A DNA stretch of 51,530 bases, taken from Candidatus Pelagibacter communis. GTDB lineage: Bacteria > Pseudomonadota > Alphaproteobacteria > Pelagibacterales > Pelagibacteraceae. The stretch covers positions 1 through 51,530 of the forward strand of contig NZ_CVSI01000014.1 in the NCBI RefSeq assembly GCF_001179985.1, read 5' to 3'. The position numbers and the translations under genes were made by a program. Position 1 is the first letter of the stretch, and the number at the start of each line of letters is the position of its first letter. Below are positions 2,443 through 28,993 of this stretch, piece after piece. The notes under the pieces are model-generated. The model had not been told where the DNA came from and did no database searches. It saw only the letters and a list, made by a program, of their open reading frames with translations.

Positions 2443-2920
2443 AATATTTTTTATTACTCTGATCTTAATCTATTCCCAAGCATCATTTGCTGATCAACAT
2501 GAAAGTGTTGAAGAGCAAACAACTGAACAAGTGACAGAACAAGAAACAGATCAAACAATTGAACAAACACCAACAGAACAAGCAACATTACCCGAAGATG
2601 AGGAAGATGAAGTTCCTTTGAATGATCCATTTGCAGGAAACGAGTCAGGCTCTAGCATTTCCAATATTCCAGACGGTGAAGAGGAAAATGAAATGAGTTT
2701 ATATAATTTTAAATTGGTTGGTATAATTTCTGGTGAAGAAACTAGCTATATTTCTTTAGTAGATGCATCTGGAGAAGTTATCACACTATCATTATCACAG
2801 TATTTAGGAGAAATTAAATTAGTAGATATGAGAATAAACGAGGCAATATTTGAAAAAAATGATAAAACTTATATGATCATAGACTTTAATAATCAAATTC
2901 GGGAAGTAAATGAATATTAA
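2429..2920 (+). CDS. PilP-like periplasmic pilus protein
   Basis: The 163-aa product starts with a cleavable-looking signal peptide (about residues 1-21, ending SQASFA). A low-complexity Thr/Glu/Gln stretch with degenerate TEQ repeats follows (residues ~26-55), then an acidic linker. The C-terminal ~70 residues (FKLVGIISGEETSYISLVDA...) resemble the small beta domain of PilP/GspC-type proteins. PilP links the PilN/PilO platform to the secretin, and this gene sits exactly between pilO and the secretin gene, overlapping both (14 and 11 bases). Canonical PilP is a lipoprotein; this one shows no lipobox Cys, so it may be soluble in the periplasm. Confidence 0.65.
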   Translation: MNFFKIFFITLILIYSQASFADQHESVEEQTTEQVTEQETDQTIEQTPTEQATLPEDEEDEVPLNDPFAGNESGSSISNIPDGEEENEMSLYNFKLVGIISGEETSYISLVDASGEVITLSLSQYLGEIKLVDMRINEAIFEKNDKTYMIIDFNNQIREVNEY

Positions 2921-4454: not shown

Positions 4455-4455
4455 A

Positions 4456-6213: not shown

Positions 6214-7451
6214 TGTCATCAGAAACATTTACATATAAAGGTATATCTGCAGGAAAATACGTCGAGGGAGATATTGAGGCTCTTAATCAAGAAGAAGCTT
6301 CGTTTAAGCTTAAAGAGCAGAAAATAATAATAACCAATTTAGTTAAAACTAAGAAGAAAAAAGCTGAAAAAGAGAAGAAAAAAGGCTCTGGATTTTCATT
6401 TGGTAAGAAAAAAATTACACCTGCAGACGTAGTAATCTTTTCAAAACAATTTGCAACAATGGTTAAAGCAGGACTTCCAATTTTGAACGTACTTACTATG
6501 TTAAGAGATCAAATTGAACATCCAACAATGAAAGAGATTATTGAAGACATAAGAAAAAGTCTTGAAGGTGGTATAACTCTTTCAAAATGCTTTGAAAAAT
6601 ATCCAAAAGTTTTTGATAATATCTATATCAACTTAATTAAAGCAGGAGAGGCCAGCGGTAAATTAGATATTTTCTTACTTAAATTGGTAGACTCATTAGA
6701 AAAAAGAGAAAAAGTTAAAAAGAAGATAAAAGGTGCTTTAACATATCCAACAGTTATGTTCACCGTAGCCATAACAGTTATGGTATTCATGTTAATCAAA
6801 GTTGTTCCAGTATTTGCTAAAATGTATGAGGGAATGGGAGTTGCCTTACCAACTCCTACAGCAGTAATTATGAATGCTAGTAATTTTATGAGAGGCGCTG
6901 GTGGTTTAACACTTTTTATCATATTAGTGATCGGTTTTGCTGTATTTAAATATACGACAACAAAAATTCCTGCAATAAGATATAAGTGGCATCAACAGGT
7001 TTTAAAAATGCCAGTATTTGGAGATATGATACTAAAATCTCTTATTGCAAGAATATCATTAATTATGGGAAATCTAAGTGCAGCAGGTGTTAACCTTTTA
7101 GAGAGTATAGAAATTGCAAAACAAGTTAGCAATAATGATGTTGTTACACAAGCTTTAGAAAATGTTAAAAAAGGAGTTTTCTCCGGAGACACTTTAACCA
7201 AACTATTTTTGAAAGAGCCAGTGTTTCCACCTACATTCAGTCAATTAATTTCTGTTGGTGAACAAACTGGTAATTTAGATGAAATGTTTACTTCTGTTTC
7301 AAGTTATTACGAGGAAGAATTTGATACCGCAGTAGATAATATGTCAAGTTTAATTGAACCGATTATGATTGTTTTTATGGGTACGATGATCGGCGGATTA
7401 ATGATTGCGATGTACTCACCAATATTTAATGTTGGTTCTATAGTTGGATAA
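6213..7451 (+). CDS. pilC: Type IV pilus inner-membrane platform protein PilC
   Basis: This 412-aa protein of the PilC/GspF family has two repeated T2SSF cytoplasmic domains (about residues 75-200 and 275-400), each followed by hydrophobic membrane segments, including the C-terminal one at ~385-408 (IVFMGTMIGGLMIAMY). The motif GEASGKLD in the first repeat and GEQTGNLDEMF in the second are the classic paired family signatures. It anchors pilus assembly in the inner membrane next to the ATPase. The start overlaps the ATPase stop (TAATG). It is the last gene of the machinery operon and ends convergently with an antisense gene one base away. Confidence 0.93.
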   Translation: MSSETFTYKGISAGKYVEGDIEALNQEEASFKLKEQKIIITNLVKTKKKKAEKEKKKGSGFSFGKKKITPADVVIFSKQFATMVKAGLPILNVLTMLRDQIEHPTMKEIIEDIRKSLEGGITLSKCFEKYPKVFDNIYINLIKAGEASGKLDIFLLKLVDSLEKREKVKKKIKGALTYPTVMFTVAITVMVFMLIKVVPVFAKMYEGMGVALPTPTAVIMNASNFMRGAGGLTLFIILVIGFAVFKYTTTKIPAIRYKWHQQVLKMPVFGDMILKSLIARISLIMGNLSAAGVNLLESIEIAKQVSNNDVVTQALENVKKGVFSGDTLTKLFLKEPVFPPTFSQLISVGEQTGNLDEMFTSVSSYYEEEFDTAVDNMSSLIEPIMIVFMGTMIGGLMIAMYSPIFNVGSIVG

Positions 7452-7452
7452 T

Positions 7453-7893
7453 TTATAATTGTTTAGTAAGAATTAAATGGTTGATCCAAGGTTTTTCACC
7501 TTCTCTAAAAACAACTGCATCCATAATTTGTTGAATAAAAAAAGTTCCTAAACCACCTGGTTTAACATCATCAATATTTCTGTGTCTTACTTTTGCGCCA
7601 TCCACTGGTTTTCCTTTATCAAAAAAACCAATTTCTAATTCATCATTTTTTCCTAATGAAATTTTAATTTCCATTTTATCATCATTAGTTTCAATATCTT
7701 TATAGGCATGTTTAACAATATTTTGAGCCGCTTCAGCAATAGCTAAAACTAGCTCATCTTTTAAGTCTTGATCAATTTTAATTTTTTCAAAAACCTCTCT
7801 TGAAAAAGATCTTACTTCTTTTAAACTTGCAGAATTAACGATGAATTCTCTTGTCTCGGAAATTTTATTTTCACTTTTGTTTGTCTCGTTCAT
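7453..7893 (-). CDS. RsbW-like serine kinase / anti-sigma factor (GHKL ATPase)
   Basis: This 146-aa protein has a single HATPase domain of the RsbW/SpoIIAB kind. The N-box is at ~47-63 with Glu54 and Asn58 (ELVLAIAEAAQNIVKHAY), the G1-type DKGKP at 92-96, and the Gly-rich GGLGTFF at 113-119. Such proteins bind and inhibit a sigma factor or another target and phosphorylate a STAS antagonist. It lies 9 bases downstream of a STAS gene on the same strand, so the two form a partner-switching pair. Both sit opposite to and inside a type IV pilus locus. No sigma factor or PP2C phosphatase is nearby, so the output is unknown. Confidence 0.85.
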   Translation of the reverse strand: MNETNKSENKISETREFIVNSASLKEVRSFSREVFEKIKIDQDLKDELVLAIAEAAQNIVKHAYKDIETNDDKMEIKISLGKNDELEIGFFDKGKPVDGAKVRHRNIDDVKPGGLGTFFIQQIMDAVVFREGEKPWINHLILTKQL

Positions 7894-7902
7894 CTAATTT
7901 GT

Positions 7903-8202
7903 TTAATCTAAATTTAAAATCTGCTCTAGCTTAGCCATCATAATTACTTTCAAAACTGATTTACTGATTTCTTTTAAGATAACCTTAGTTCCAACCTCTA
8001 ATGCTTTTTGGTGACTTTCAATTAGAACAGATATTCCAGATGAGTCCATGTACTGAACGTCTTTTAAATTTATATGAACTTCTTTCTTAGCTTCGATCAA
8101 AGGCATAATTAACTCTTTAGCCTTATCAACAACGTCCATATCTATCTCTCCATTTAAAAAAACGGTAGATATGTTTCCTTCCTCTGAGACTTTATATGTC
8201 AT
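7903..8202 (-). CDS. STAS-domain anti-sigma factor antagonist (RsbV/SpoIIAA-like)
   Basis: This 99-aa single STAS domain carries the motif YMDSSGISVL at residues 51-60; one of the two serines (Ser54/Ser55) is the expected phosphorylation site. In this family the unphosphorylated antagonist sequesters the RsbW-like kinase encoded immediately downstream, and phosphorylation releases it. The upstream region (8203-8384) is shared with the divergent major pilin gene, so both promoters must lie in about 180 bases. The family call is firm; the controlled process is not known from sequence. Confidence 0.87.
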   Translation of the reverse strand: MTYKVSEEGNISTVFLNGEIDMDVVDKAKELIMPLIEAKKEVHINLKDVQYMDSSGISVLIESHQKALEVGTKVILKEISKSVLKVIMMAKLEQILNLD

Positions 8203-8371
8203 AAAAAATTAATATTCCCTCATAGGTATATATGCCTTATAAATCTTAAATTAAGAAAAAAAAAGGTGTTTTGGCCTAATTTTAACACGAAATTTGTTGA
8301 AAATATCAATAAATTGATTAAAAAAAAGGCTTTGAAATACGTTTTAATGGAGATACAGTTAAACAATAATT

Positions 8372-8377
8372 GAGGAG
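8372..8377 (+). promoter_or_regulatory. Strong Shine-Dalgarno of the first pilin gene
   Basis: GAGGAG lies seven bases before the ATG at 8385. Most genes in this window have weak or no recognisable ribosome binding site and depend on overlaps with the gene before them, so this strong site fits a stand-alone, abundantly translated pilin. Confidence 0.7.
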
Positions 8378-8384
8378 TTATTAA

Positions 8385-8852
8385 ATGAAAAAAAATTCAA
8401 AAGGTTTCACACTTATAGAACTACTTGTTGTTGTAGCTATCATCGGTATTTTAGCTGCAGTTGGCGTAGTTGCATATAATGGTTATACAGCTTCAGCAAA
8501 GAAAAATGCTGTTAAAACTATGCATGCACAAACACTAAAATATGTTTCAGCAGAGATACAAAAATGTACTCTTGAAGGAGCTAGTGGTAAAGCGTTTGGA
8601 TCAAATAGCGCAAACTGTGGACAAATTAATGGTAACAATGGAGCGACAACAGCAGTTTCTGCTTTAGTTGCAAATGCTACTGATAAAAACCCATACGACT
8701 CATCTAAAAAAGCAATAGAGAATACAACTGGCTATGCAGAAGGTCGAATTAGTGTAAACGGAAGTGGTAAAGTTATAACTATTAAATCTTGCTATGTAAC
8801 ACCATGTTCTGGTGACAATATTACAGGCGAAACTAAAGTTACTATAGAATAA
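8385..8852 (+). CDS. Type IV pilin, probable major subunit (PilA-like)
   Basis: This 155-aa prepilin has a short leader (MKKNSKG) and the canonical cleavage site G|FTLIE, followed by the hydrophobic N-terminal helix (LLVVVAIIGILAAVGVVAY). The mature N-terminus would be methylated Phe, with Glu5 for assembly. The globular part has four Cys in two pairs (CTLEG.../NCGQ and SCYVTPC), suggesting disulfides and a C-terminal D-region loop. It has a strong ribosome site and its own upstream region, divergent from the STAS gene. The prepilin peptidase needed to process it is not in the window. Major versus minor pilin status is inferred from first position and the strong start signal. Confidence 0.9.
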   Translation: MKKNSKGFTLIELLVVVAIIGILAAVGVVAYNGYTASAKKNAVKTMHAQTLKYVSAEIQKCTLEGASGKAFGSNSANCGQINGNNGATTAVSALVANATDKNPYDSSKKAIENTTGYAEGRISVNGSGKVITIKSCYVTPCSGDNITGETKVTIE

Positions 8853-8867
8853 TATTTCAATTTTTTA

Positions 8868-9299
8868 ATGAATACTAATAAGCTCGGTTTTTCTTTAATC
8901 GAGCTTTTAGTAGTTGTTGCGATATTAGGCATTATAGCAACAATTGGTATAAATGCATATTCAGGATACATCTCTGGTACAAAAAAACAATCTGCGAGAA
9001 ATGTAATGCAGCAAGTGTCACTAGGTCAGTCTGAATATATGTCCCAAAACGGACAATATTATTACACCAGTCAATCAACTGGAGAATGCAGCCCTAATAC
9101 CAATTCTTCAAATTCTATAGAACAAAATCTTTTAGGAAGATCAGACTCTATAAATGAAGAAATGGGTTACGAGCTTTGTACTCACCAAGATAATACAAAG
9201 ACAAAGTTTAAAGTTGTTGCAAAAGAAGTTGGTGGTAAATGCATATTATTGATGAATGAATTTGGAGCAATATCTGAAAAAAAAGCAAGTGATTGTTAA
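8868..9299 (+). CDS. Type IV pilin-like protein (second pilin)
   Basis: This 143-aa prepilin has leader MNTNKLG and processing site G|FSLIE, followed by a hydrophobic helix very similar to that of the preceding pilin. The globular domains differ: this one has Cys residues near 84, 104, 127 and at the very C-terminus (SDC). It begins 15 bases after the first pilin, so the two are probably cotranscribed. It could be a minor pilin, or an alternative major subunit made from a duplicated and diverged copy. Confidence 0.87.
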   Translation: MNTNKLGFSLIELLVVVAILGIIATIGINAYSGYISGTKKQSARNVMQQVSLGQSEYMSQNGQYYYTSQSTGECSPNTNSSNSIEQNLLGRSDSINEEMGYELCTHQDNTKTKFKVVAKEVGGKCILLMNEFGAISEKKASDC

Positions 9300-18324: not shown

Positions 18325-18428
18325 GATTTATCACAACTAGTTTTGCCTTTATTAACCTTAATTAATCAGATTTTATTATATATTTATTTATGTATCTTTT
18401 AATAAATTATTATGTTATAAATATTTAT

Positions 18429-18570
18429 ACGGGAGAGACTACATATTTGTAGCGCCGAAGGAGCAACCACCCCGGAAACTCTCAGGCAGAAGGACCGTAC
18501 GTATTAACTCTGGAAAGAGATAAATTCTCGCCGAAGGAGCTAAAATCTCTCAGGCACACCGACAGAGGGG
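18429..18570 (+). ncRNA. Tandem glycine riboswitch (gcvT leader)
   Basis: Two glycine aptamers in series are visible. The first (about 18430-18500) has GGGAGAG, a small P2-type hairpin around CTACA/TGTAG, the conserved GCGCCGAAGGAGCAA core and CTCTCAGGCAGAAGGACCG. The second (about 18509-18570) has GGAAAGAG, CGCCGAAGGAG and CTCTCAGGCACACCGACAGAG. They are joined by a short linker. The start of gcvT follows 16 bases after the second aptamer. No U-tailed terminator is evident after it, so control may act on translation initiation or on an overlapping structure. The family normally switches glycine cleavage on when glycine is plentiful. Confidence 0.95.
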
Positions 18571-18586: not shown

Positions 18587-19690
18587 ATGAATGTAAAAAA
18601 AACTGCACTGTACCAATTACACAAAAATCACAACGCTAGATTCGTTGAATTCGCTGGTTATAGTATGCCAATTCAATACTCTGAGGGAATTGTAAAAGAA
18701 CATAATATTACAAGAAATAAGTCTGGAATTTTTGATGTTTCGCATATGGGGCAGTTATTCATTAAATATAATGATGACATAACAGATAAGCTCCAAGAAA
18801 TTTTACCGACTGATCTTAAAAATTTAAAAATTAATCAAAGTAAGTATTCGTTTTTAATGAAAGAGAACGGGGGAATATATGATGATCTTATTATCACCAA
18901 GATGAAAGATCAGTACATGATTATTTTAAATGCCGCATGTAAACAAAACGATCTTCAGATTATTAAAAATAAATTAAATAATCAAAATTTGGATATGAAC
19001 AATGATTTATCTCTCATAGCTATACAAGGCCCAGAGTCCAAAACAATTCTTGAAAATGTAGTTTCAAATATATCAAAATTAAAATTCATGAATGGAGAAA
19101 AATTTTCTTTTAAAAATAATGAAATCTATATAACAAGATCAGGATATACAGGTGAAGATGGCTTTGAAATATCATTACCTAATAAAGTTGCAATCTCTTT
19201 TGCAGAAGAATTAATTTTAAAAGGGTCAACTTTAATCGGTTTAGGTGCAAGAGATACTCTAAGATTAGAAGCAGGTTTGTGCTTGTACGGTCATGACATA
19301 AATGAAAATACCAGTCCAGTTGAAGCAAATTTAAAGTGGGCTATTTCAAAAAACAGAATCAATGATAATTTTATAGGGTCAAAAAAAATAAAAAAACAAA
19401 TTGAAGAAGGTGTGTCAAAATTAAGAGTTGGTATCAAACCAGAGACTAGAGTTATAGCAAGAGAGTCAACGAAAATTTTTGATGAAAAAGACAATGAAAT
19501 TGGAAAAGTTACTAGCGGCACATTTGGACCAAGTGTTAATGCATCTATTGCGATGGGATATATTTCAAATTCTCATTCTAAAACAGATACAAAAATTTTC
19601 TTAGAAGTAAGAGGGAAAAAAGTACCTGCCAATGTTTGTGATTTACCGTTTTATAAAAAAAGTTATGTGAAGGGAGAAGCTAATGTCTGA
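18587..19690 (+). CDS. gcvT: Glycine cleavage system T protein (aminomethyltransferase)
   Basis: This 367-aa protein opens with the family motif around [22 protein letters not shown] and IFDVSHMGQ, has the folate-binding region and Asp-containing [14 protein letters not shown], and ends with the GcvT C-terminal barrel ([16 protein letters not shown]). It transfers the methylene of the aminomethyl-lipoyl group to tetrahydrofolate, releasing ammonia. It is the first gene after the glycine riboswitch and overlaps gcvH by eight bases. Confidence 0.96.
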
Positions 19691-20063
19691 TACAAAATTT
19701 TCAAAAGAACACGAATGGATTACATTAGATGGGGAAGTTGGAACTATTGGAATTACAAAACATGCAACTGAAATGTTAGGTGACATAGTTTTTGCTGAAT
19801 TACCTGAAAAAGGATCTAATGTTGAAAAAGATGGAACTGCAGGGGTGGTAGAGTCAACAAAAGCTGCTAGCGATGTATATACTCCAGTAAGTGGTGAGGT
19901 TGTAGAAATTAATCAATCAATTGTTGATGATCCATCAAAAATCAATGCTGACCCAGAGGGCGGAGCTTGGTTTTTTAAACTAAAGTTAAAAAATAAATCA
20001 GAACTCGATACTCTTATGAATAAAGAAGAGTACGATAAATTTGCAAAGGAGACATCAACATAA
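19683..20063 (+). CDS. gcvH: Glycine cleavage system H protein
   Basis: This 126-aa lipoyl carrier carries the lipoyl-attachment Lys60 in [14 protein letters not shown], and the flanking Gly residues ([22 protein letters not shown]) are conserved. It shuttles the aminomethyl group between P, T and L proteins. It is translationally packed between gcvT (8-base overlap) and gcvP (TAATG). The L protein and lipoate enzymes are not in this window. Confidence 0.96.
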
Positions 20064-22933
20064 TGTTACCAAATTCAGAAAAAGATTTTTTAAAGAGACA
20101 CATTGGACCTTCTAAAGACGATCAATCAAAAATGTTAAAAGAATTAAATTATCAATCACTAGATGATTTAATTAACAGCACAGTACCAGAAAAAATAAAA
20201 TTTAATGGTGAACTTAACATTGGTGAGTCAAATTCAGAATATGAAGCTTTGAGAAAATTAAGAACAATTTCAAAAAAAAATCAAGTTTACTCAAATTTTA
20301 TAGGTATGGGTTATTACGGAACGTATACACCTTATGTAATTTTAAGAAATATATTAGAAAATCCAGGTTGGTATACTTCATATACGCCTTATCAGCCAGA
20401 AGTAGCTCAAGGAAGACTTGAGATGTTATTAAATTTTCAACAAATGATCGTTGACTTTACAGGAATGGATATCGCTAATGCCTCTTTATTAGATGAAGGT
20501 ACAGCAGCAGCGGAGGCTATGGGCCTAAGTCACAGATTGAACAAAAAAGATAGTAATATAGTTTTTGTATCTGAGGATTGTCATCCTCAAACAATAAATG
20601 TAATTCAAACTAGAGCTGAACCAATGGGTTTAAAAGTATTGGTTGGTAAAGAAGATGAGGTTTTAGACCAGTTAAAAGAGGATTTAGTTTGTGGAATTTT
20701 ACAATATCCTGGAACTTTAGGAAATATTAAGGACCCAAGTGAAGCAATTAGCAAAATCCGTAAAAAAAATGGTAAGGCTGTATTAGCATGTGATTTGTTG
20801 GCATTAGCAAAATTAAAAACACCAAGAGAACTTGGTGCTGATATAGCAGTTGGAAGCTCACAAAGATTTGGTATTCCGATGGGGTATGGAGGTCCACACG
20901 CAGCTTTTTTTGCAACAAAAGATGAATACAAAAGATCAATGCCGGGAAGAATTGTTGGTGTGTCAGTGGATAGACATGGCAATAAAGCATATAGATTGTC
21001 CTTACAAACTAGAGAGCAACATATCAGAAGAGACAAGGCTACAAGTAACATTTGTACTGCCCAAGCTCTATTAGCAATTGTATCAGCAGCATATTCTATT
21101 TATCACGGCCCAGATGGAATTAAGAACATTTCTGAAAGAGTGTCACAATTAGCAAAAAGTTTTGCTGACAAAATAAAACAGTCTGGATATGAACTTTATT
21201 CCAATTATTTTTTTGATACTGTTACAATTATTACTAAAGAAAAAACTGATCAAATTTATAAAAATGCTTTAAATCAAAAAGTTAATATACGTAAAGTAAA
21301 TTCTGAAATGCTTGCAGTTTCTTTTGATGAAAGAAAAAACGTTTATAGAGTAAATCAACTATTAAAAATCTTTAACGCAGCAGAATCAATCAAAAAAGAG
21401 GATCCTTCAGTAAGTTTACCTAATCTCCCAAAAAACTTATTGAGAACCTCAAAATATTTAGAACATCCAGTTTTCAACTCATATCATTCTGAAACTGAAA
21501 TGCTGAGATACTTAAAAAGATTAGAAGATAAGGATATAGCATTGAATAGAACAATGATTGCACTTGGTTCATGTACGATGAAGCTAAATGCTGCCGCAGA
21601 GATGATCCCAATTTCATGGAAAGAGTTTGCAGAACCTCATCCATTTGTTCCAATTGAACAAATGGAAGGATTTAGAGATCTATTTACTGATCTAAAAAAT
21701 TGGTTGCGTTCCATAACTGGTTTTTCGGGCGTTTCTCTTCAACCTAATGCAGGTGCTCAAGGTGAATACGCGGGATTGATGGTTATCCGAAAGTATCATT
21801 TATTTAGAGATGAGGCCAATCGAAACATATGTTTGATTCCAAGTTCAGCACACGGCACTAATCCAGCAAGCGCACAAATGGCTGGAATGAAAGTTGTTGT
21901 TGTTAATTGTGATAAAGAAGGAAATGTTGATTTTGATGACTTAAAGAAAAAAGTAGAGCAACATTCTGAAAACCTTGGGGCATTAATGGTGACTTATCCA
22001 TCCACTCATGGAGTGTTCGAAGAAAAAATATCAGATATTTGTGAGTTAGTTCATAAACATGGTGGTCAGGTTTATATGGATGGTGCAAATCTAAACGCAT
22101 TAGTGGGAATTGCTAAACCTGGAAATTTTGGTCCAGACGTTTGTCACATTAACTTACATAAAACGTTTTGTATTCCTCATGGTGGGGGAGGACCTGGAAT
22201 GGGTCCAATTGCTTGTAAAAGACATTTACAAGTTTACCTGCCCAACCACCCAGTAATAAAAGATTGTGGACCAACATCTGGAATTGGAGCAGTTTCCGCA
22301 GCGCCTTGGGGAAGTTCAAGCATTTTATCAATTTCTTGGATGTATATTAAAATGATGGGATCAGCAGGGTTAAAGCTTGCTACTCAAGTTGCGATACTTA
22401 ATGCAAATTATATAGCTCACAGATTAAAAGATCACTTTCCAATTTTGTATAAAGGGTCAAATAGCAATGTGGCCCACGAATGTATAATTGATATTAGAAA
22501 TATTAAATCAGAAACAGGAATAACAGAGGAAGATATTGCGAAAAGATTAATTGATTATGGTTTTCATGCACCAACTATGTCCTGGCCTGTCGCCGGCACT
22601 ATGATGATAGAACCAACCGAGAGTGAAAATCTGAGAGAGATAAATAGATTCTGTGATGCGCTCATTAAGATCAAATCTGAAATTGACAATATAAAATCTG
22701 GTAAATTTGATAAAATAGACAATCCTATAAAGAATGCACCTCACACAGATTTAGAGCTCTCATCTGATGAATGGAGGCATAAATACACACGTGAAGAAGC
22801 AGCTTATCCATCTAAATATTTGAAAAGCAATAAATTTTGGCCACCAGTTGCTAGAGTAGATAACGTATATGGAGATAAAAATATATTCTGTACTTGTCCA
22901 AGTATGGATGAATTTAAAGAAGACGCAGCTTAA
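20063..22933 (+). CDS. gcvP: Glycine decarboxylase (P protein), single-chain form
   Basis: This 956-aa homodimeric-type P protein has both halves fused; the N-terminal half (about 1-440) and the PLP-bearing C-terminal half are both intact. The PLP Schiff-base Lys is Lys700 in NLHKTFCIPHGGGGPGMGP. It decarboxylates glycine and passes the aminomethyl group to GcvH. It is the last clear member of the riboswitch-controlled gcvTHP operon, though the next gene starts only five bases after the stop and could be read through from the same transcript. Confidence 0.97.
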   Translation: MLPNSEKDFLKRHIGPSKDDQSKMLKELNYQSLDDLINSTVPEKIKFNGELNIGESNSEYEALRKLRTISKKNQVYSNFIGMGYYGTYTPYVILRNILENPGWYTSYTPYQPEVAQGRLEMLLNFQQMIVDFTGMDIANASLLDEGTAAAEAMGLSHRLNKKDSNIVFVSEDCHPQTINVIQTRAEPMGLKVLVGKEDEVLDQLKEDLVCGILQYPGTLGNIKDPSEAISKIRKKNGKAVLACDLLALAKLKTPRELGADIAVGSSQRFGIPMGYGGPHAAFFATKDEYKRSMPGRIVGVSVDRHGNKAYRLSLQTREQHIRRDKATSNICTAQALLAIVSAAYSIYHGPDGIKNISERVSQLAKSFADKIKQSGYELYSNYFFDTVTIITKEKTDQIYKNALNQKVNIRKVNSEMLAVSFDERKNVYRVNQLLKIFNAAESIKKEDPSVSLPNLPKNLLRTSKYLEHPVFNSYHSETEMLRYLKRLEDKDIALNRTMIALGSCTMKLNAAAEMIPISWKEFAEPHPFVPIEQMEGFRDLFTDLKNWLRSITGFSGVSLQPNAGAQGEYAGLMVIRKYHLFRDEANRNICLIPSSAHGTNPASAQMAGMKVVVVNCDKEGNVDFDDLKKKVEQHSENLGALMVTYPSTHGVFEEKISDICELVHKHGGQVYMDGANLNALVGIAKPGNFGPDVCHINLHKTFCIPHGGGGPGMGPIACKRHLQVYLPNHPVIKDCGPTSGIGAVSAAPWGSSSILSISWMYIKMMGSAGLKLATQVAILNANYIAHRLKDHFPILYKGSNSNVAHECIIDIRNIKSETGITEEDIAKRLIDYGFHAPTMSWPVAGTMMIEPTESENLREINRFCDALIKIKSEIDNIKSGKFDKIDNPIKNAPHTDLELSSDEWRHKYTREEAAYPSKYLKSNKFWPPVARVDNVYGDKNIFCTCPSMDEFKEDAA

Positions 22934-22938
22934 AATTA

Positions 22939-24174
22939 ATGAAAGTTGCAGTCATTGGCTCAGGTATCTCAGGACTTAGTGCTGCATACTTTCTATCAAA
23001 AAAATATAAAGTTGATTTATTTGAAAAAGAAGATCGTTTTGGAGGGCACTCTCACACAATTGATATTAAATTAAATGAAGATACAAATAAAATTCATGCA
23101 GATATTGGTTTTATTGTTTTTAATAAAAAAACTTATCCAAATTTAATTAATTTTTTTAAAGAAATAGACGTAGACATAGAAAAAAGCAATATGAGCTTAT
23201 CATTTATGTCTAAAGACATAGATTTAGAATATTGTGGAAAAGGATTAAAAGGTATTTTCTCCCATAAAAAAAACTTATTTAATTTTGATTTTTTTAAAAT
23301 GTTTTTAGAAATATTAAAATTTTATAAAAAAAGTTCTAAATTAAATGAATTTAATGAAGATATGAGCCTAGGCGAATATCTAGTTAATGAAAAACATTCT
23401 GAGTATTTTACTAATTATCATTTAATCCCTATGGTATCCGCAATTTGGTCAATGCCACCCTATGATGCAAAAAAAATGCCAATTAAATTTTTTATGAAGT
23501 TTTTTCAAAATCATGGTTTATTTAATTTAAGTAAAAGACCACAGTGGTACACAGTAAAAAACAGAAGCAGACAATATGTAAATAAAGTAATAGAAAAAAT
23601 TAGCGGTAAACATTTTAAAAATTACAAAATTGATAAAATAAAGAGAATTTCAAATTTCGTGAGAATTTTTTATGGGTCAGAAAATGAATATTTCGATTAC
23701 GATAAAGTTATTATTGCTACTCATGCTGATGAAGCAAAACAAATGATAGAGGACAAATCTGAAGAAGAAACTAAAATTTTGGGAAGTTTTCAATATAAAA
23801 AAAATTTAGCCATAATTCACTCAGATGAAGTAGTTATGCCTCAAAAAAGATTTAATTGGTCTGCGTGGAACACATCAATTTCAAAAAAAAATAGTTCTGT
23901 AACTTATTGGTTAAATTTACTCCAAAATTTTAAAATAAATAAAAATATCTTTTTAACTCTCAATCCTTTTGAGCAGATAAACACAGATAAAATAATAAAG
24001 AAAGTTGAATTTACTCACCCTTATTATGATCATAAAACACTAAAAAACCAGAAAAATTTACATTTGATACAAAATAAAAAAAATATATTATTTTGTGGTA
24101 GTTACTTTGGTTATGGATTTCACGAAGATGGCATTAAATCTACATTAGAAATGATTAAATTTTTGAATGATTAA
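22939..24174 (+). CDS. FAD-dependent amine-oxidase-like oxidoreductase (lipid-modification cluster)
   Basis: This 411-aa protein has an N-terminal dinucleotide fold (VIGSGISGLSAAYFL, residues 5-19), the FGGHSHTI FAD loop and a C-terminal CGSYFGYGFHEDG motif near the end. It belongs to the 'NAD/FAD-binding, amine-oxidase-like' group (COG2907) commonly encoded with DUF1365 and cyclopropane fatty acid synthase-like genes. It overlaps the DUF1365 gene by eight bases. Related proteins in Rhodobacter are connected with modified (methylated or furan) fatty acids; I infer a fatty-acyl desaturation or oxidation step here. It starts five bases after gcvP. Confidence 0.8.
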   Translation: MKVAVIGSGISGLSAAYFLSKKYKVDLFEKEDRFGGHSHTIDIKLNEDTNKIHADIGFIVFNKKTYPNLINFFKEIDVDIEKSNMSLSFMSKDIDLEYCGKGLKGIFSHKKNLFNFDFFKMFLEILKFYKKSSKLNEFNEDMSLGEYLVNEKHSEYFTNYHLIPMVSAIWSMPPYDAKKMPIKFFMKFFQNHGLFNLSKRPQWYTVKNRSRQYVNKVIEKISGKHFKNYKIDKIKRISNFVRIFYGSENEYFDYDKVIIATHADEAKQMIEDKSEEETKILGSFQYKKNLAIIHSDEVVMPQKRFNWSAWNTSISKKNSSVTYWLNLLQNFKINKNIFLTLNPFEQINTDKIIKKVEFTHPYYDHKTLKNQKNLHLIQNKKNILFCGSYFGYGFHEDGIKSTLEMIKFLND

Positions 24175-24934
24175 TAATTCTTGTATTTATGTTGGAAGCG
24201 TAATTCATAAAAGGTTTAAACCTAAAAAACATTTTTTTAAATATGACGTTTTTTCTCTTTTCTTAGATCTCGATGAAATAAATGAACTTGATAAGAAAAT
24301 TCCTTTTTTTTCGTATAATAAATTTAATATTTTAAGTTTTTTTGATAAAGACCATGGTTATAGAGATGGCTCATCAATTAAAGATTGGTTAATTCATGTT
24401 TTGAAAAAAAAGAATATTTCCACAATAAGTATTAAAATTAAAATATTATGCTATCCAAGAATATTTGGGTATGTTTTTAATCCATTAAGTATTTTTTTTA
24501 TCTACGATATAGACTCAAATCCAATAGCAATATTATACGAGGTTAAAAATACTTTTGGAGAACAACATACTTATGTCTTTAAAATTGATATAAAAAATAA
24601 ACAGATCTTTAATAATTGCAAAAAAAAATTTTATGTATCACCTTTTATGGATTTAGAATCAAAATATTTTTTTAAGGTGCTGATTCCTAGCGAAAGACTT
24701 TCAGTAATTATCGATCAGAGAGACAAAGAGGGAAAACTATTATTTGCTTCACAAGATGGCGTAAGAGTAAAATTAAGCTCAAAAAATCTGCTTAAATCAT
24801 ATTTAAAACATCCTTTAATGACCCTCAAAATAATTTCAGCAATACATTATGAGGCATTAAAACTTTGGATGAAAGGCATTAAATTAGTTAAAAAGAACTT
24901 AAAAATTAAAAATAATACTAGTTACGAAAATTAA
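24167..24934 (+). CDS. DUF1365 family protein
   Basis: This 255-aa protein shows DUF1365 hallmarks: N-terminal CIYVGSVIHKRFKPKKHFF, then CYPRIFGYVFNPLSIFF and EVKNTFGEQHTYVF. The biochemical activity is not established. It is almost always found between a COG2907 FAD enzyme and a CFA-like methyltransferase, exactly as here, with overlaps on both sides (8 bases and TAATG). A role in making or handling the same modified lipid is inferred from this linkage. Confidence 0.88.
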   Translation: MINNSCIYVGSVIHKRFKPKKHFFKYDVFSLFLDLDEINELDKKIPFFSYNKFNILSFFDKDHGYRDGSSIKDWLIHVLKKKNISTISIKIKILCYPRIFGYVFNPLSIFFIYDIDSNPIAILYEVKNTFGEQHTYVFKIDIKNKQIFNNCKKKFYVSPFMDLESKYFFKVLIPSERLSVIIDQRDKEGKLLFASQDGVRVKLSSKNLLKSYLKHPLMTLKIISAIHYEALKLWMKGIKLVKKNLKIKNNTSYEN

Positions 24935-26109
24935 TGATTAATAATTTTTCAAAAAAAATAGCTTTTTCGGCGTTAAAAATGATTAAGTATGGGAAGATCA
25001 TAGTAACAGATTATGATCAAAGCAAACATACATTCGGTAAAGATGAAAATTTAATTGTTTTTGTAAAAATTAATAGATCAGATTTTTTTAAGAAAATAAT
25101 TTCAAAAGGTAGCATTGGTATGGCAGAGGCCTACATGAATAACGAATTTGAAACTGATAACTTATCAAAATTGATAGAGTTAACTGCTAAAAACATTGAA
25201 ATTGTCCACAAGTTTTCAGGTATTTTAGATCTATCTTTTATTAATTATTTAAAAAATATTTTTAATAAAAATACGAAATCAAATTGTAAAAAAAATATCT
25301 CAAAACATTATGATTTAGGAAATGAATTTTTTTCACTTTGGTTAGACGATACTTTGACATACTCTAGTGCTATTTTTGAAAATGATAAATTAGATTTGGA
25401 AAAAGCACAAATAAATAAATATAAAAAGTTAACTTCACTTATTAAGCCTAAAATTGGTGACAAAGTTTTAGAGATAGGTTGTGGATGGGGCGGTTTTGCA
25501 GAATTTATAGGAAAAAATTATGATGTTAAACTAGATTGTATAACAATTTCAAAAAAACAATTCGATTACGCTAAAAATAGAATTTATAAAATAGGTCTTA
25601 ACGAAAAAATTAATATTAAAATGCAGGATTATAGAGACGTAAGAAATAAATATAATTCGATTGCTTCAATTGAAATGATTGAAGCAGTAGGACAAGGTTA
25701 TCTTAAAAATTATTTTCAAAGCATTAAAAAATATTTAAAAGATGATGGTAAAGCAGCAATTCAGGCAATCACGATCGATGATAAATTATTTAATAGATAT
25801 AAAAAAAAGGAAGATTTTATTCAAAAATATATTTTTCCAGGTGGATTTCTTCCGTCTAAAAACTCCTTAGTTGAACACGCAAAAAAAACTGGACTAGAGT
25901 TTACACAATGTAATTCTTATGGAGTGCATTACAGCAATACTCTTAAAATTTGGAGAGAAAAATTTTCTAAAAGTTGGGAACATATATCTAAGCAAGGTTT
26001 TGATAACACATTTAAGAGAATGTGGAATTTCTATTTATCTTATTGTGAAGCTGGCTTTAGATCAAAAAATATTGATTTAATACAGTTCTCTTTACTTAAA
26101 AATAAATAA
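24934..26109 (+). CDS. Cyclopropane-fatty-acyl-phospholipid synthase-like methyltransferase
   Basis: This 391-aa protein has an N-terminal substrate-side domain (residues ~1-120, with GSIGMAEAYM), the KHYDLGNEFFSLWLD signature, the SAM motif VLEIGCGWGGFAEF at about 176-190 and the SIEMIEAVGQGY active-site region. It would transfer a methyl or methylene group from SAM to an unsaturated acyl chain of a membrane phospholipid. The family includes true CFA synthases as well as methyltransferases making methyl-branched fatty acids. The FAD enzyme and DUF1365 partners favour the second type, but this is inference. Confidence 0.9.
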   Translation: MINNFSKKIAFSALKMIKYGKIIVTDYDQSKHTFGKDENLIVFVKINRSDFFKKIISKGSIGMAEAYMNNEFETDNLSKLIELTAKNIEIVHKFSGILDLSFINYLKNIFNKNTKSNCKKNISKHYDLGNEFFSLWLDDTLTYSSAIFENDKLDLEKAQINKYKKLTSLIKPKIGDKVLEIGCGWGGFAEFIGKNYDVKLDCITISKKQFDYAKNRIYKIGLNEKINIKMQDYRDVRNKYNSIASIEMIEAVGQGYLKNYFQSIKKYLKDDGKAAIQAITIDDKLFNRYKKKEDFIQKYIFPGGFLPSKNSLVEHAKKTGLEFTQCNSYGVHYSNTLKIWREKFSKSWEHISKQGFDNTFKRMWNFYLSYCEAGFRSKNIDLIQFSLLKNK

Positions 26110-26110
26110 T

Positions 26111-26644
26111 ATGAAATTAATAAAATCAATTCTATTGATTATTGTCTTGTCCTTAGTTACAAGCTGTTCAAATAATATGAAGCCAGAAGACTTTAAAAAT
26201 ACCGAGCCTACATTACTAATCGAAGAATATTTTAATGGCAAAGTGAAGGCATGGGGCATCCTACAAGACAGAAGTGGAAAGGTTACACGTCAATTCAAAG
26301 CAGATCTAATCGGTTCCTTTGATGACAATATTATTACTCTAGATGAAGACTTTTATTGGACAGATGGTGAAAAACAAAAAAGAACTTGGAAAATAAAAAA
26401 AATAGATAATAATAATTATATAGGAACCGCACCAGACGTAGTTGGAGAAGCAACTGGTGTGCAATATGGATCAGCATTTAAATTCAAATATGATTTGTTA
26501 GTTCCATTCAAAAATAAAAATATCAAAGTTTCATTTGATGATTGGATATTTAAACAAGATGAAAAAGTAGCAATCAATAGAGCGACCTTAACTAAATTTG
26601 GTTTTAAAGTTGGTGAGTTGACTGTCTTTTTTATGAGAGACTAA
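26111..26644 (+). CDS. DUF3833 family lipoprotein
   Basis: This 177-aa protein has a lipoprotein signal with lipobox LVTSC (Cys19), then a DUF3833 domain (FNGKVKAWGILQDRSGKVTRQF, a late FKVGELTVFF). Function is unknown; such proteins occur repeatedly in CFA/DUF1365 clusters. It starts one base after the methyltransferase stop and ends convergently, with its stop overlapping that of the SDR gene. Confidence 0.82.
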   Translation: MKLIKSILLIIVLSLVTSCSNNMKPEDFKNTEPTLLIEEYFNGKVKAWGILQDRSGKVTRQFKADLIGSFDDNIITLDEDFYWTDGEKQKRTWKIKKIDNNNYIGTAPDVVGEATGVQYGSAFKFKYDLLVPFKNKNIKVSFDDWIFKQDEKVAINRATLTKFGFKVGELTVFFMRD

Positions 26645-27399
26645 TCAACAATCTTTTTCATACCTTTCTCAATTATTTTGAAATACAACCCATTTGGCAT
26701 TATTTTTAGAAACTTCATTATGGATGTAAAAGATTTTGGAAAATGAATTTCAAATCCCTTATTTTTTGTTAGACCTTTAAACATTTGATCTGCAGCGAAC
26801 TCTGGAGATTTAATCATTGGCATTGGAAATTCATTTTTATCAGTCATAGGTGTTTTTATGAAACCAGGACTTACAAGAGAAACACGAACATTAAATCTTT
26901 TTAGATCAAAGTATAGACTTTCTGCAAAACTACTTAGGGCAGATTTAGACGCACAATATGCACCTGCTGCAGGCAAACCTCTGTAACCTGCTACCGAAGA
27001 TACTATAGATATATGTCCTGATTTTCTACTTTTATAATACTCGTATACAGAATTTATTGAATGTACGGTGCCAAAAAAATTAACTTCCATAATTTTTTTA
27101 ACCTTTTCAAGATTTAAACTCTTCTCAGATTTTGGATCATGAATTCCTGTGCAGAATACGGATATATCAATCTCCCCAATTTTATTTCTAATATTTTCGA
27201 ACACATTTTTACACTTTTCACTATCCGTTACGTCTAAAGGAAATGGCATTATATTCTCATTACTTTGAGATATTTCATTTAACAAATTTTCTCTTCTCGC
27301 TGAAATTGCTACCTTCCAACCTTCTTTTGCAAATTTTAATGCTAGTGCTTTACCAATCCCACTACTAGCTCCAGTTATCCATATTGATTTATTATTCAT
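26641..27399 (-). CDS. Short-chain dehydrogenase/reductase
   Basis: This 252-aa classical SDR has cofactor motif TGASSGIG at 9-16, catalytic Ser134/135 and Tyr148-x3-Lys152 (YCASK). The Arg residues after the second beta strand (ISARRE) favour NADP. The C-terminal SLVSPGFIKTPMTDK matches family members found with CFA/DUF1365 genes. It is encoded convergent to those genes and divergent from tspO with only 6-24 bases between starts. The substrate is unknown; a lipid-derived alcohol or ketone is plausible from context. Confidence 0.87.
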   Translation of the reverse strand: MNNKSIWITGASSGIGKALALKFAKEGWKVAISARRENLLNEISQSNENIMPFPLDVTDSEKCKNVFENIRNKIGEIDISVFCTGIHDPKSEKSLNLEKVKKIMEVNFFGTVHSINSVYEYYKSRKSGHISIVSSVAGYRGLPAAGAYCASKSALSSFAESLYFDLKRFNVRVSLVSPGFIKTPMTDKNEFPMPMIKSPEFAADQMFKGLTKNKGFEIHFPKSFTSIMKFLKIMPNGLYFKIIEKGMKKIVD

Positions 27400-27405
27400 A
27401 TAAAA

Positions 27406-27888
27406 ATGATGTATAATATGAATATGTTGAAAAATAAATTTATATCTTTTACAATATTTGCAATAATCACCTATTCTGCGTCATTTATTGGAAGTTTAGC
27501 TACATTCTCTTATAAAGAGCCTTGGTATTCGACACTAAATAAATCTTTTTTGACACCTCCTGACTGGGTATTTGCTCCTGTTTGGACAACTTTATATCTT
27601 TTTATGGCTATAGCAATTTGGTCAGCTTGGCATAAGAATTATAATATAAATTTAGTTTTAATTTATTTGATTCACTTATGTTTTAATACAACTTGGAGTG
27701 TAGTTTTTTTTGTTTTCCACAACATTGAATTAGCATTATTAAATTTGATAGTAATAATAATATTTATAGCAATATTAACTTTCAAATATAAAAAAATAAA
27801 TAATTTAAGTTTTTATCTGATGATTCCTTATTTACTTTGGAGCTGTTATGCATTAATTCTTAATTTTACTTTAGTTTTATTAAATTAA
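27406..27888 (+). CDS. tspO: TspO/MBR family membrane protein
   Basis: This protein of up to 160 aa has five predicted helices and the TspO signatures EPWYSTLNKS, TPPDWVFAPVWTTLYLFMAIAIW and, later, FNTTWSVVFFVFHN. TspO proteins bind porphyrins and related ligands, and in Rhodobacter the protein takes part in oxygen- and light-related regulation. Possible starts are ATG at 27406, 27409, 27418 or 27424; the last (MLKNKF) best matches the usual N-terminus. It is only 6-24 bases from the divergent SDR start. The next gene begins one base after its stop. Confidence 0.92.
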   Translation: MMYNMNMLKNKFISFTIFAIITYSASFIGSLATFSYKEPWYSTLNKSFLTPPDWVFAPVWTTLYLFMAIAIWSAWHKNYNINLVLIYLIHLCFNTTWSVVFFVFHNIELALLNLIVIIIFIAILTFKYKKINNLSFYLMIPYLLWSCYALILNFTLVLLN

Positions 27889-27889
27889 T

Positions 27890-28993
27890 ATGGATGATAT
27901 TGTAGTAGTTGGCGGTGGAATAATTGGAGCATCTACAGCTTATTTTCTTTCAAAGGAAGGTAGAAAAGTAAAAGTAATTGAAAAAGATCCAACTTACAAA
28001 AAAGCTTCATTTCCATTATCTTTAGGTGGTTTTAGAAGACAATTTTTTCAAAAAGAGAACATCATGTTAGGAAAGTTTTCGAGAGAATTTTTGTTAAATG
28101 TTCCTAGTGATCTAAAAACTAAAAATAACCCAAGCCCAACAGTCAGTATGGTCCCAAATGGCTACCTTTTACTTTTTGGACCAGAACACGCTCAAGAACA
28201 GTATTTAGCTTTAGAAAATCATAAAGCTTGTGAGGCTGGTACAAAAAATATTAAAGGTTCAGAATTAAAACAAGTATTTCCATATATAAGTGAAGAGGGT
28301 ATTGAAACAGCAACTTATTCGGATACAAAAATTGAAGGCTGGATAGACCCATATTTATTTCATAATGCTTTAAAAAATAAAGCCATAGAATTGGGCGCAG
28401 AATTTATTAAAGGAGATGTTAAAAGTTTAAAAGAAATTAAAGCAAATGCAATAGTATCAGCCGCAGGTTGTTGGACTAATGAACTTTTAAATGATATACC
28501 AGTTTTTCCTCAAAAGCATACTGTTTTTAGATTTAAATGCCCTAAACATATTCCTGAAATGCCATTAACGGGTGATTTAACAACAGGAGTATATTGGAGA
28601 CCTGAAGGTAAAGAATATTTAGCTGGATCACCGAAGCCTGTATGGGGTGCTGAAGATTTGGAACCAGAATGGAATGATTTTGAAGAATTAGTTTGGCCAG
28701 GTTTAGCAAAAAGAATTTCAGTTTTTGAAGAAATTAAAATGACTGGTGCTTGGGCTGGTTACTACGATTGCAATAAACTAGATAATAATGCAGTAGTTGG
28801 AAAACACCCAGGATACAAGAATGTGTATATGGCATCTGGATTTACTGGAAGAGGTTTAATGCAGGCACCTGGTATTGGTAGAGCTTTGACAGAATTGATT
28901 ACAACAGGGTCTTATCAAACAATCGATTTAGGTTGTTTTTCTGTTGAGAGAGTATTAAAGCAAGAGGAAAGAGTAGAACCTTACGTTTTATAA
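27890..28993 (+). CDS. DAO-family FAD-dependent oxidoreductase
   Basis: This 367-aa protein has N-terminal VVGGGIIGASTAYFL (residues 5-19) and C-terminal ASGFTGRGLMQAPGIGRAL, which close the FAD site of D-amino-acid oxidase/sarcosine-oxidase-like enzymes. The FRRQFF segment after the first lobe resembles FOXRED1-like members. The likely substrate class is an N-methylated or D-amino acid, giving an imine and possibly formaldehyde, but the substrate is not readable from sequence. It begins one base after tspO. The downstream formate dehydrogenase on the other strand is compatible with a one-carbon oxidation theme. Confidence 0.85.
   Translation: MDDIVVVGGGIIGASTAYFLSKEGRKVKVIEKDPTYKKASFPLSLGGFRRQFFQKENIMLGKFSREFLLNVPSDLKTKNNPSPTVSMVPNGYLLLFGPEHAQEQYLALENHKACEAGTKNIKGSELKQVFPYISEEGIETATYSDTKIEGWIDPYLFHNALKNKAIELGAEFIKGDVKSLKEIKANAIVSAAGCWTNELLNDIPVFPQKHTVFRFKCPKHIPEMPLTGDLTTGVYWRPEGKEYLAGSPKPVWGAEDLEPEWNDFEELVWPGLAKRISVFEEIKMTGAWAGYYDCNKLDNNAVVGKHPGYKNVYMASGFTGRGLMQAPGIGRALTELITTGSYQTIDLGCFSVERVLKQEERVEPYVL

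Follow-up and report, generated by a model that had tools for sequence, protein, structure and literature searches.

The closest described system is the furan fatty acid pathway of Rhodobacter (Cereibacter) sphaeroides, in which, according to PMC7380195, UfaM, UfaD (RSP1091, with an NAD/FAD domain) and UfaO (RSP1090, a DUF1365 protein) are together sufficient in vivo, and the DUF3833 (RSP1088) and SDR (RSP1087) proteins are not needed for furan acids. The same study identifies RPA2571, RPA2570 and RPA2569 of Rhodopseudomonas palustris as UfaD, UfaO and UfaM, respectively. A further relevant system is the glycine-riboswitch gcvT operon of SAR11 bacteria: PMC5069720 reports that SAR11 glycine-riboswitch transcripts reach into gcvT in situ, and that Pelagibacter HTCC7211 has a known riboswitch upstream of gcvT.

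Close relatives stand in here for C. sphaeroides. In two such genomes (L077 and L078), rpoE-chrR lies beside an FAD-DUF1365-MFS-DUF3833-SDR run, the MFS label of the L078 gene being based on Pfam. The L078 ORFs of 249, 401, 186 and 245 aa match RSP1090, RSP1089, RSP1088 and RSP1087 (250, 402, 186 and 245 aa). Each genome encodes a single high-scoring CMAS, at 295.5 and 294.2 bits against 35.4 and 33.8 bits for the runner-up; this CMAS, which we infer to be UfaM, is encoded beside a photolyase gene. The regulatory contexts named in a preliminary description of the locus studied here are also real: RpoE-ChrR accompanies the genes in Azospirillum, RpoE-ChrR and photolyase in Pseudoalteromonas, and MerR and photolyase in Salinivibrio.

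Gene order and distribution of the cassette

The stretch of DNA that we analyzed (hereafter, the window) covers 51,530 nt of contig NZ_CVSI01000014.1 from Candidatus Pelagibacter communis. The ORF list and Pfam searches showed that all six gene families named in the preliminary description are represented by intact ORFs. A ufaD-like FAD oxidoreductase gene (NAD_binding_8; 22939..24174, + strand), the product of which is a predicted desaturase of a methyl-branched acyl chain, overlaps by 8 bp a ufaO-like DUF1365 gene (24167..24934, +; PF07103, 252.8 bits) for a predicted O2-dependent furan-forming enzyme. The latter overlaps by 1 bp a ufaM-like CMAS gene (24934..26109, +; PF02353, 282.1 bits) for a predicted SAM-dependent fatty-acyl methyltransferase, which is followed, after 1 bp, by the gene for a DUF3833 protein (26111..26644, +; PF12915, 208.5 bits), the counterpart of RSP1088, with a lipoprotein-like signal (LVTSC) in its sequence and a predicted beta barrel. 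Given these overlaps and the 1-bp spacing, the four genes look like one transcription unit. The SDR-family oxidoreductase gene, the RSP1087 counterpart, is inverted (26641..27399, −) and divergent from the gene for a TspO/MBR family membrane protein (27406..27888, +; PF03073, 124.8 bits), the two start codons lying 6 bp apart; TspO regularly accompanies the cassette in the gcv-linked lineage alone. A DAO-family FAD oxidoreductase gene, weakly ThiO-like (below the NCBIfam cut-off), starts 1 bp past tspO (27890..28993, +) and is a neighbour only. All 31 loci compared (the window's own and the 30 best-scoring others) have the order gcvP-FAD-DUF1365-CMAS-DUF3833, which excludes chance; the cluster proposed in the preliminary description is real.

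The window shares with R. sphaeroides the three enzyme families, the UfaM-type active site, and the DUF3833 and SDR neighbours in the RSP1091-1087 order. It differs in that ufaM lies inside the cassette, whereas in L077 and L078 the MFS gene occupies this place and the CMAS gene is elsewhere; furthermore, the SDR gene is inverted, rpoE-chrR is missing, and the cassette is placed behind gcvTHP and a glycine riboswitch. Judging by the gene numbers alone, as given in PMC7380195, R. palustris has the same UfaD, UfaO, UfaM order as the window. The homology to the RSP1087-1091 set that had been suspected earlier was borne out, with the counterparts matched through L077 and L078. However, the pathway is not "stripped-down", as had been suggested: none of the three enzymes required for the monomethyl furan acid lacks a homologue here.

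DUF1365 was detected in 308 of the 397 genomes of the SAR11-like order, and all three enzyme types occur together in each of 20 longer SAR11 loci (in L073, the FAD gene is cut by the contig end). Among 16 checked genomes out of the 89 without a DUF1365 match, no clean loss of the cassette was found: 11 had no match to the C-terminal part of gcvP either, and in 5, gcvP extends up to a contig end or close to it; in 3 of these, the FAD gene begins behind gcvP and is cut off by the end of the contig. The misses, as far as these 16 of 89 go, suit assembly gaps, with joint loss of the whole gcv-ufa region possible in the 11. In the sister genera g2, g3, g4 and g8, 7 of 8 genomes have photolyase adjacent to the cassette, and the triad lies directly behind the photolyase gene in all four genera; in a second family, it lies behind sarcosine oxidase genes. 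Because four sister genera have photolyase directly upstream, its absence next to the window cassette looks like a lineage-specific rearrangement.

Enzymes encoded by the cassette

The window CMAS matches PF02353 and CFA models, and cyclopropane fatty acid synthases are its closest solved structures by sequence, as could be expected if the locus were that of an ordinary cyclopropane fatty acid synthase and the redox genes around it were unrelated. However, the scores against all three matched NCBIfam CFA models are far under the cut-offs (279.7 vs 600, 271.1 vs 400 and 214.1 vs 650 bits). In the E. coli Cfa numbering, the window protein carries S139, E236, E239, A240 and Q266, that is, a UfaM-type active site, in which the CFA residues C139, G236, H240 and H266 are replaced and E239, I268 and Y317 are kept. 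The CFA active-site set, which we take to be C139, E239, H266, I268 and Y317, is accordingly disrupted by the changes of C139 to S and H266 to Q. Moreover, 19 of the 22 searched genomes of the window's genus encode another CMAS scoring >310 bits, and the 10 of these that were fetched are CFA-type.

With identical proteins merged, and proteins <300 aa and locus L001 left out, the combination of E236, a residue other than H at position 240, and Q266 was observed in 96 of 97 CMAS from stretches also holding an FAD or DUF1365 match, the single exception being the second CMAS of a locus, 7.7 kb away from the triad there; the 42 unlinked CMAS comprised 38 CFA-type and 4 UfaM-type proteins. Both distinct UfaM sequences from the L077 and L078 genomes belong to the E236/non-H240/Q266 type. 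The E236/A240/Q266 signature offers a simple separator of UfaM-type proteins from true CFA synthases. Mycobacterial MmaA1, which produces methyl-branched trans alkenes, has E236 and A240 at the aligned positions as well, but differs in having D at 239, mycolic acids as substrate, and membership in a distant family.

The window protein is 40% identical to the CMAS of the L077 and L078 genomes (378 positions), 34% to E. coli Cfa (345 positions) and 33% to a SAR11 stand-alone CFA type (386 positions). We constructed an 87-row tree of CMAS from chosen loci (short SAR11 loci L002-L049, most of L079-L129 and proteins <300 aa left out) and a 44-row tree drawn from these rows (L155, L184, L188, L194 and L198 left out). 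The CFA and UfaM sides were split at 99 SH-aLRT in the former and 100/99 in the latter, with the window on the UfaM side. Joining the window-type CMAS with CFA was rejected marginally by the AU test (p 0.045), a narrow result because the constraint also permits the SAR11 rows as the first branch on the UfaM side. Thus, the clustering with true CFA synthases that, according to the preliminary description, would speak against its reading did not occur, and these comparisons place the methyltransferase in the UfaM branch rather than among the CFA synthases. On the active-site residues and the trees we reject the cyclopropane synthase reading, and we assign very little probability to the locus being an ordinary one of that kind.

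In comparison with L078, the window FAD protein is 33% identical to the counterpart of RSP1091 (415 aligned positions) and the DUF1365 protein 29% identical to that of RSP1090 (234 positions). Since the latter identity is only 29%, within a diverse family (26-70% identity to the window protein), a different oxidation product is possible, and the triad might yield a methyl-branched or otherwise oxidised chain other than the Rhodobacter furan acid, for instance, one derived from another chain length, or the diene as end product. Nematode FCMT-1, a relative of UfaM, is reported to yield methyl-branched acids (PMC10876521). However, the three enzyme types consistently co-occur in the longer SAR11 loci, and the invariant DUF1365 residues H14, R16, Y136, K153, S158, P159, F160 and Y167 are common to SAR11 and L077/L078 (68 sequences), so that we consider a deviating product unlikely. 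The DUF1365 structure model (pLDDT 94.6) had no match in the PDB at E <= 0.001 using Foldseek; the best VIA Z score, 7.2 to nitrobindin, is within the range reached by models without a clear match, and the best sequence hit among solved structures (E 0.45) is not credible.

Linkage to the glycine cleavage operon

A gap of 5 bp separates the FAD gene from the gcvP stop codon, and the cassette follows a gcvT-gcvH-gcvP run (glycine cleavage T protein, 18587..19690; H protein, 19683..20063; glycine dehydrogenase, 20063..22933; all + strand, by Pfam) headed by a glycine riboswitch aptamer upstream of gcvT (RF00504, 18420..18507, +; 67.3 bits, E 6.4e-12). This linkage and the riboswitch were overlooked in the first reading of the sequence. 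In all 42 genomes of genera g1, g5, g6 and g7 with a fetched locus, gcvP is directly upstream of the cassette, at a spacing of -1 to 14 bp that is kept across the four genera, and a scan of 11 other gcv-linked loci found RF00504 ahead of gcvT in each of them, as in the window. The genes are co-directional and closely spaced, and a scan of the window revealed no terminator-like site between gcvP and the FAD gene. Judging from the spacing, the cassette is probably co-transcribed with the gcv operon, with the glycine riboswitch as the likely cis-regulator of the combined gcv-ufa operon. The riboswitch upstream of gcvT is shared with the known SAR11 operon, from which the window differs in the apparent extension into a lipid pathway; no such extension of this operon was found in the literature searched.

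The preliminary description held that the cluster lacks a regulator. This is correct for the adjacent genes, given that a Pfam search of the non-overlapping ORFs of at least 120 aa in the window yielded neither an ECF sigma factor nor ChrR, MerR/LitR or photolyase, but it misses the riboswitch-led operon directly upstream. The search for ChrR in the entire assembly, which is only 75.5% complete, was negative as well, and none of 197 genomes of the order had a ChrR match over the cut-off, with weak matches to the C-terminal part of ChrR only in 21 of the 197; photolyase-family matches of this genome are on other contigs. In these respects, the locus differs from an RpoE-ChrR singlet-oxygen regulon.

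Alternatively, the gcv linkage could reflect packing through genome streamlining, without shared regulation, in which case the cassette would be expressed from a promoter of its own and a response to light could persist. Tight gene packing is usual in small genomes, and the read assemblies in PMC5069720 reached gcvT and linked no further genes to the riboswitch. However, the short spacing behind gcvP is conserved over four genera, the window has no terminator-like site at the junction, and in the second family the triad lies behind sarcosine oxidase, another one-carbon operon. We regard packing alone as a serious contender, if somewhat short of an even chance. Promoter-like matches in the AT-rich window DNA were no more frequent than by chance (50 vs 63.8 in shuffles) and thus speak neither for nor against an internal promoter.

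Proposed pathway, significance and origin

With homologues of all three enzymes encoded by co-located genes, which overlap in the window, and a methyltransferase of the UfaM branch, the locus is best read as a UfaD-UfaO-UfaM furan fatty acid cassette rather than a cyclopropane synthase locus, and the tie to methylated or furan fatty acids drawn in the preliminary description is supported. We consider it quite probable that the products of the cluster carry out furan fatty acid synthesis on intact phospholipids, with the genes here forming the tail of a glycine cleavage operon. By analogy with the three reactions known from Rhodobacter and Rhodopseudomonas experiments, the UfaM-like enzyme would transfer a SAM methyl group onto the cis double bond of an 18:1 chain, giving a trans alkene with a methyl branch instead of a cyclopropane ring; this alkene would be converted to a methyl-branched diene by the UfaD-like flavoenzyme; and the UfaO-like DUF1365 protein would insert an oxygen atom from O2 and close the methylated furan ring. 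The compounds that characterise the known pathway are 11Me-12t-18:1, 11Me-10t,12t-18:2 and 9M5-FuFA. The most likely products are methylated furan fatty acids on SAR11 phospholipids, tied here to one-carbon metabolism. Such chains would be easily oxidised and may serve as membrane scavengers of singlet oxygen or of further oxidants; judging by the work on Rhodobacter, a photoprotective role is plausible. In this genus and three related ones, with the cassette as the glycine cleavage operon tail, expression would be expected at a high supply of one-carbon units from glycine and would not be triggered by light or singlet oxygen.

The furan pathway itself is already known, whereas its SAR11 host, prevalence and genomic contexts were not found in the literature searched, in which the joint match for SAR11 and furan acids was a dinoflagellate volatile study. 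Because SAR11 cells, which are among the most numerous on Earth, are highly streamlined, such a widespread lipid pathway is probably not dispensable to them. If SAR11 makes furan fatty acids, it could be an important source of these antioxidant lipids for marine food webs, and the riboswitch-led layout would be an unusual control of membrane protection, by glycine and one-carbon status rather than by the ChrR singlet-oxygen sensor. More tentatively, and with doubts outweighing confidence, we propose that SAR11 is a major, nearly universal marine source of methylated furan fatty acids, whose lineages attach the cassette to photolyase, glycine cleavage or sarcosine oxidase genes, the latter two coupling lipid methylation and antioxidant synthesis to one-carbon supply, with the glycine riboswitch or a one-carbon operon taking the role that a sensor of light or singlet oxygen would otherwise have.

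A gammaproteobacterial origin of the cassette was not supported: in a concatenated FAD+DUF1365+CMAS tree of 41 chosen loci, SAR11 and the alphaproteobacterial locus L195 formed one clade (100/99). A clade of the SAR11 rows alone was neither recovered nor rejected (AU test, p 0.088), and the gcv-linked rows sit in an open fork of the 44-row CMAS tree; letter-composition bias, which may pull AT-rich rows together, was flagged in both trees. The clusters of Pseudoalteromonas sp. HL-AS1 and Salinivibrio kushneri share the SDR-FAD-DUF1365-CFA...DUF3833 gene set with the window but have a regulator and photolyase adjacent (ChrR and MerR, respectively), as well as extra NTF2-like, DUF2878 and other genes, and the gammaproteobacterial CMAS form a separate clade in the 44-row tree. 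UfaM-type and true CFA proteins alike are annotated as "cyclopropane-fatty-acyl-phospholipid synthase", an example being the Pseudoalteromonas and Salinivibrio loci.

Gene content of the cassette and its Rhodobacter counterparts

The cluster noted in the preliminary description is confirmed. Its six genes are all intact and run in this order: FAD (ufaD-like, 22939-24174), DUF1365 (ufaO-like, 24167-24934) and CMAS (ufaM-like, 24934-26109) on the plus strand, then DUF3833, SDR on the minus strand and TspO. They lie in a small, AT-rich assembly of 945,491 bases in 74 contigs (75.5% complete), of which the window is one entire contig. The assignment to SAR11 follows the preliminary description, together with the size and composition of the genome and the riboswitch-gcvT layout that PMC5069720 describes for SAR11. 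The start codons of SDR and tspO (26641-27406) are 6 bp apart on opposite strands, leaving little space for two separate promoters, and are similarly close in most related loci.

Lemke et al. 2020 (PMC7380195) describe methylation of cis-vaccenate on phospholipids by UfaM, desaturation of the product by UfaD (RSP1091) and formation of the furan ring with O2 by the DUF1365 protein UfaO (RSP1090); deletion of RSP1087, RSP1088 or RSP1089 is described there as leaving the fatty acid profile without detectable change. Reference loci in Rhodobacter relatives were found via the ChrR gene in Cereibacter johrii (L077) and Luteovulum azotoformans (L078), and in both, FAD-DUF1365-MFS-DUF3833-SDR adjoins rpoE-chrR (for L078, Pfam bears out the MFS, DUF3833, SDR and sigma factor labels). 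The window matches this RSP1087-1091-like gene order, except that CMAS stands in the place of MFS and SDR is inverted. Each of the two genomes carries one strong CMAS, which we took to be UfaM and which is adjoined by a photolyase; RSP2144 (UfaM) adjoins a photolyase gene. Gene order, UfaM-type residues and phylogeny bear out the proposed tie to furan or methylated fatty acids, and a furan fatty acid pathway is the well-supported prediction for the cassette.

Assignment of the methyltransferase

The window CMAS is 40% identical to the putative UfaM of the Rhodobacter relatives (378 positions), versus 34% to E. coli Cfa (345 positions) and 33% to a stand-alone SAR11 CMAS (386 positions). At the sites corresponding to C139, G236, E239, H240, H266, I268 and Y317 of E. 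coli Cfa it carries S, E, E, A, Q, I and Y, respectively; C139, E239, H266, I268 and Y317 make up the bicarbonate-binding set of CFA synthase. Among 97 distinct CMAS from stretches with a FAD or DUF1365 match, 96 were UfaM-type, the single exception being a second CMAS elsewhere in its stretch (L194). Residue 139 is variable among these linked CMAS (S 81, A 11, C 2, G 2, R 1), which makes E236, A240 and Q266 more suitable as markers. Thirty-eight of the 42 CMAS lacking FAD or DUF1365 neighbours in the fetched stretch were CFA-type and 4 were UfaM-type, one of the latter adjoining a photolyase (L189) and another rpoE-chrR (L180).

Phylogenetic trees separated the UfaM and CFA sides, with SH-aLRT of 99 for 87 rows and support of 100/99 for 44 rows; the clustering with true CFA synthases that the preliminary description had named as refuting its own reading did not occur. 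An AU test forcing the gcv-linked SAR11 rows with CFA (p 0.045) is weak, because under this constraint the rows could still branch off first within the UfaM side. Judging from its sequence, the window methyltransferase is UfaM-type. Loss of the bicarbonate site together with the new acidic residue at 236 may lead the methylated cation to give up a neighbouring proton instead of closing a ring. MmaA1, an enzyme that produces methyl-branched trans alkenes, has E236 and A240 in common with the window CMAS.

Genomic contexts and the glycine riboswitch

In genera g1, g5, g6 and g7 of the SAR11-like order, gcvP precedes the cassette in all 42 genomes with a fetched locus, which include 31 from the first fetch, 30 of these chosen by top DUF1365 score. 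The distance from gcvP stop to FAD start, where measured, is -1 to 14 bp, and the 5 bp gap of the window contains no terminator-like site. The window has a glycine riboswitch (18420-18507). Each of 11 further gcv-linked loci that were scanned also has one, upstream of gcvT, and each of three photolyase-linked loci scanned lacks it. Promoter-like matches in the region are uninformative, being rarer than in shuffled sequences (50 vs 63.8). ChrR did not exceed the cut-off in any of 197 genomes of the order. The light-type locus without a regulator of the preliminary description gives way to an operon headed by a glycine riboswitch, from which the gcv-linked lineage most likely runs the predicted furan pathway.

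According to PMC5069720, SAR11 glycine-riboswitch transcripts from Red Sea water extend mainly into gcvT, and the paper states that no other genes could be tied to the riboswitch. In the second SAR11 family, f2, the sarcosine oxidase genes SoxA-SoxG and then DUF983 lie directly upstream of the triad in three of four loci by Pfam (L074, L075 and L076; L075 shows SoxB and SoxD as well), and the fourth ends at a contig edge. PMC3160333 places glycine cleavage and sarcosine-oxidase-type enzymes among SAR11 one-carbon pathways; on that placement, both non-photolyase contexts are one-carbon operons, which SAM supply may tie to the methylated lipid.

In g2, g3, g4 and g8, the FAD gene begins where a photolyase gene ends in 7 of 8 genomes (three photolyases confirmed by Pfam); in the eighth, G054, the 257 bases upstream of FAD hold no readable gene. 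L195, which belongs to a different alphaproteobacterial family, has the arrangement photolyase-FAD-DUF1365-CMAS-DUF3833. This could be the ancestral state, because the photolyase context retains its first gene and the gcv context its last. A concatenated tree unites SAR11 and L195 in one clade (100/99), with composition bias possible.

Several photolyase-related neighbourhoods were also recorded. A cysteine synthase A family gene lies directly 3' of ufaM in a photolyase-linked g2 locus (L070 8885-9883). In the window's genome, a photolyase lies apart from the cassette, directly 3' of a diaminopropionate ammonia-lyase family gene (contig C73; L264 5301-7857), and contig C67 has two weaker photolyase-family matches ~6 kb apart (near 2746 and 8662), with similar pairs in other genomes of the genus.

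Distribution and accessory genes

Of the 397 genomes of the order, 308 have a DUF1365 match, as do 126 of the 151 that are of good quality. We checked 16 of the 89 genomes without a match for gcvP: 11 had no gcvP match either, making joint loss of the gcv-cassette region possible, and in 5 gcvP runs to or near the contig end, with the FAD gene beginning and then leaving the contig in 3. None of the 16 had gcvP followed by some other gene. Each of the 7 single-contig genomes searched from the window's genus has two strong CMAS, the cassette copy at 277-284 bits and the other at 313-328 bits; the non-cassette copies fetched from 5 of them were all CFA-type. The cassette type is the only CMAS type in four complete genomes of g2, g3 and g4, and the cassette copy alone was seen in the window's assembly (75.5% complete). 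Across the window's genus, another CMAS above 310 bits occurs in 19 of 22 searched genomes; the 10 fetched (L139-L148) all retain the C139/H240/H266 set.

The DUF3833 protein has a cysteine motif of the lipoprotein kind, and its confident barrel model (pLDDT 93.4), with best Foldseek matches to BFA1 (5yvf, E 3.8e-5), CpeS phycobiliprotein lyase and nitrophorins, is consistent with binding of a hydrophobic ligand. For the likewise confident DUF1365 model (pLDDT 94.6), structure comparison found no convincing known fold. The window has TspO next to the cassette, as do 10 of 11 longer gcv-linked loci; the eleventh (L066) stops at the end of its contig. Beyond SAR11, one other alphaproteobacterium showed a TspO gene (L184 3033-3527), less than 1 kb from chrR-rpoE and close to the furan cassette.

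Elsewhere in the window, 47-9299 carries type IV pilus/type II secretion-like genes (PilM/PilN, secretin, T2SSE, T2SSF and N-terminal methylation motifs) in this streamlined genome. Within this stretch, 7456-7893 (minus strand), 15 kb from the cassette, encodes a HATPase_c_2 protein of serine-kinase/anti-sigma-like fold.
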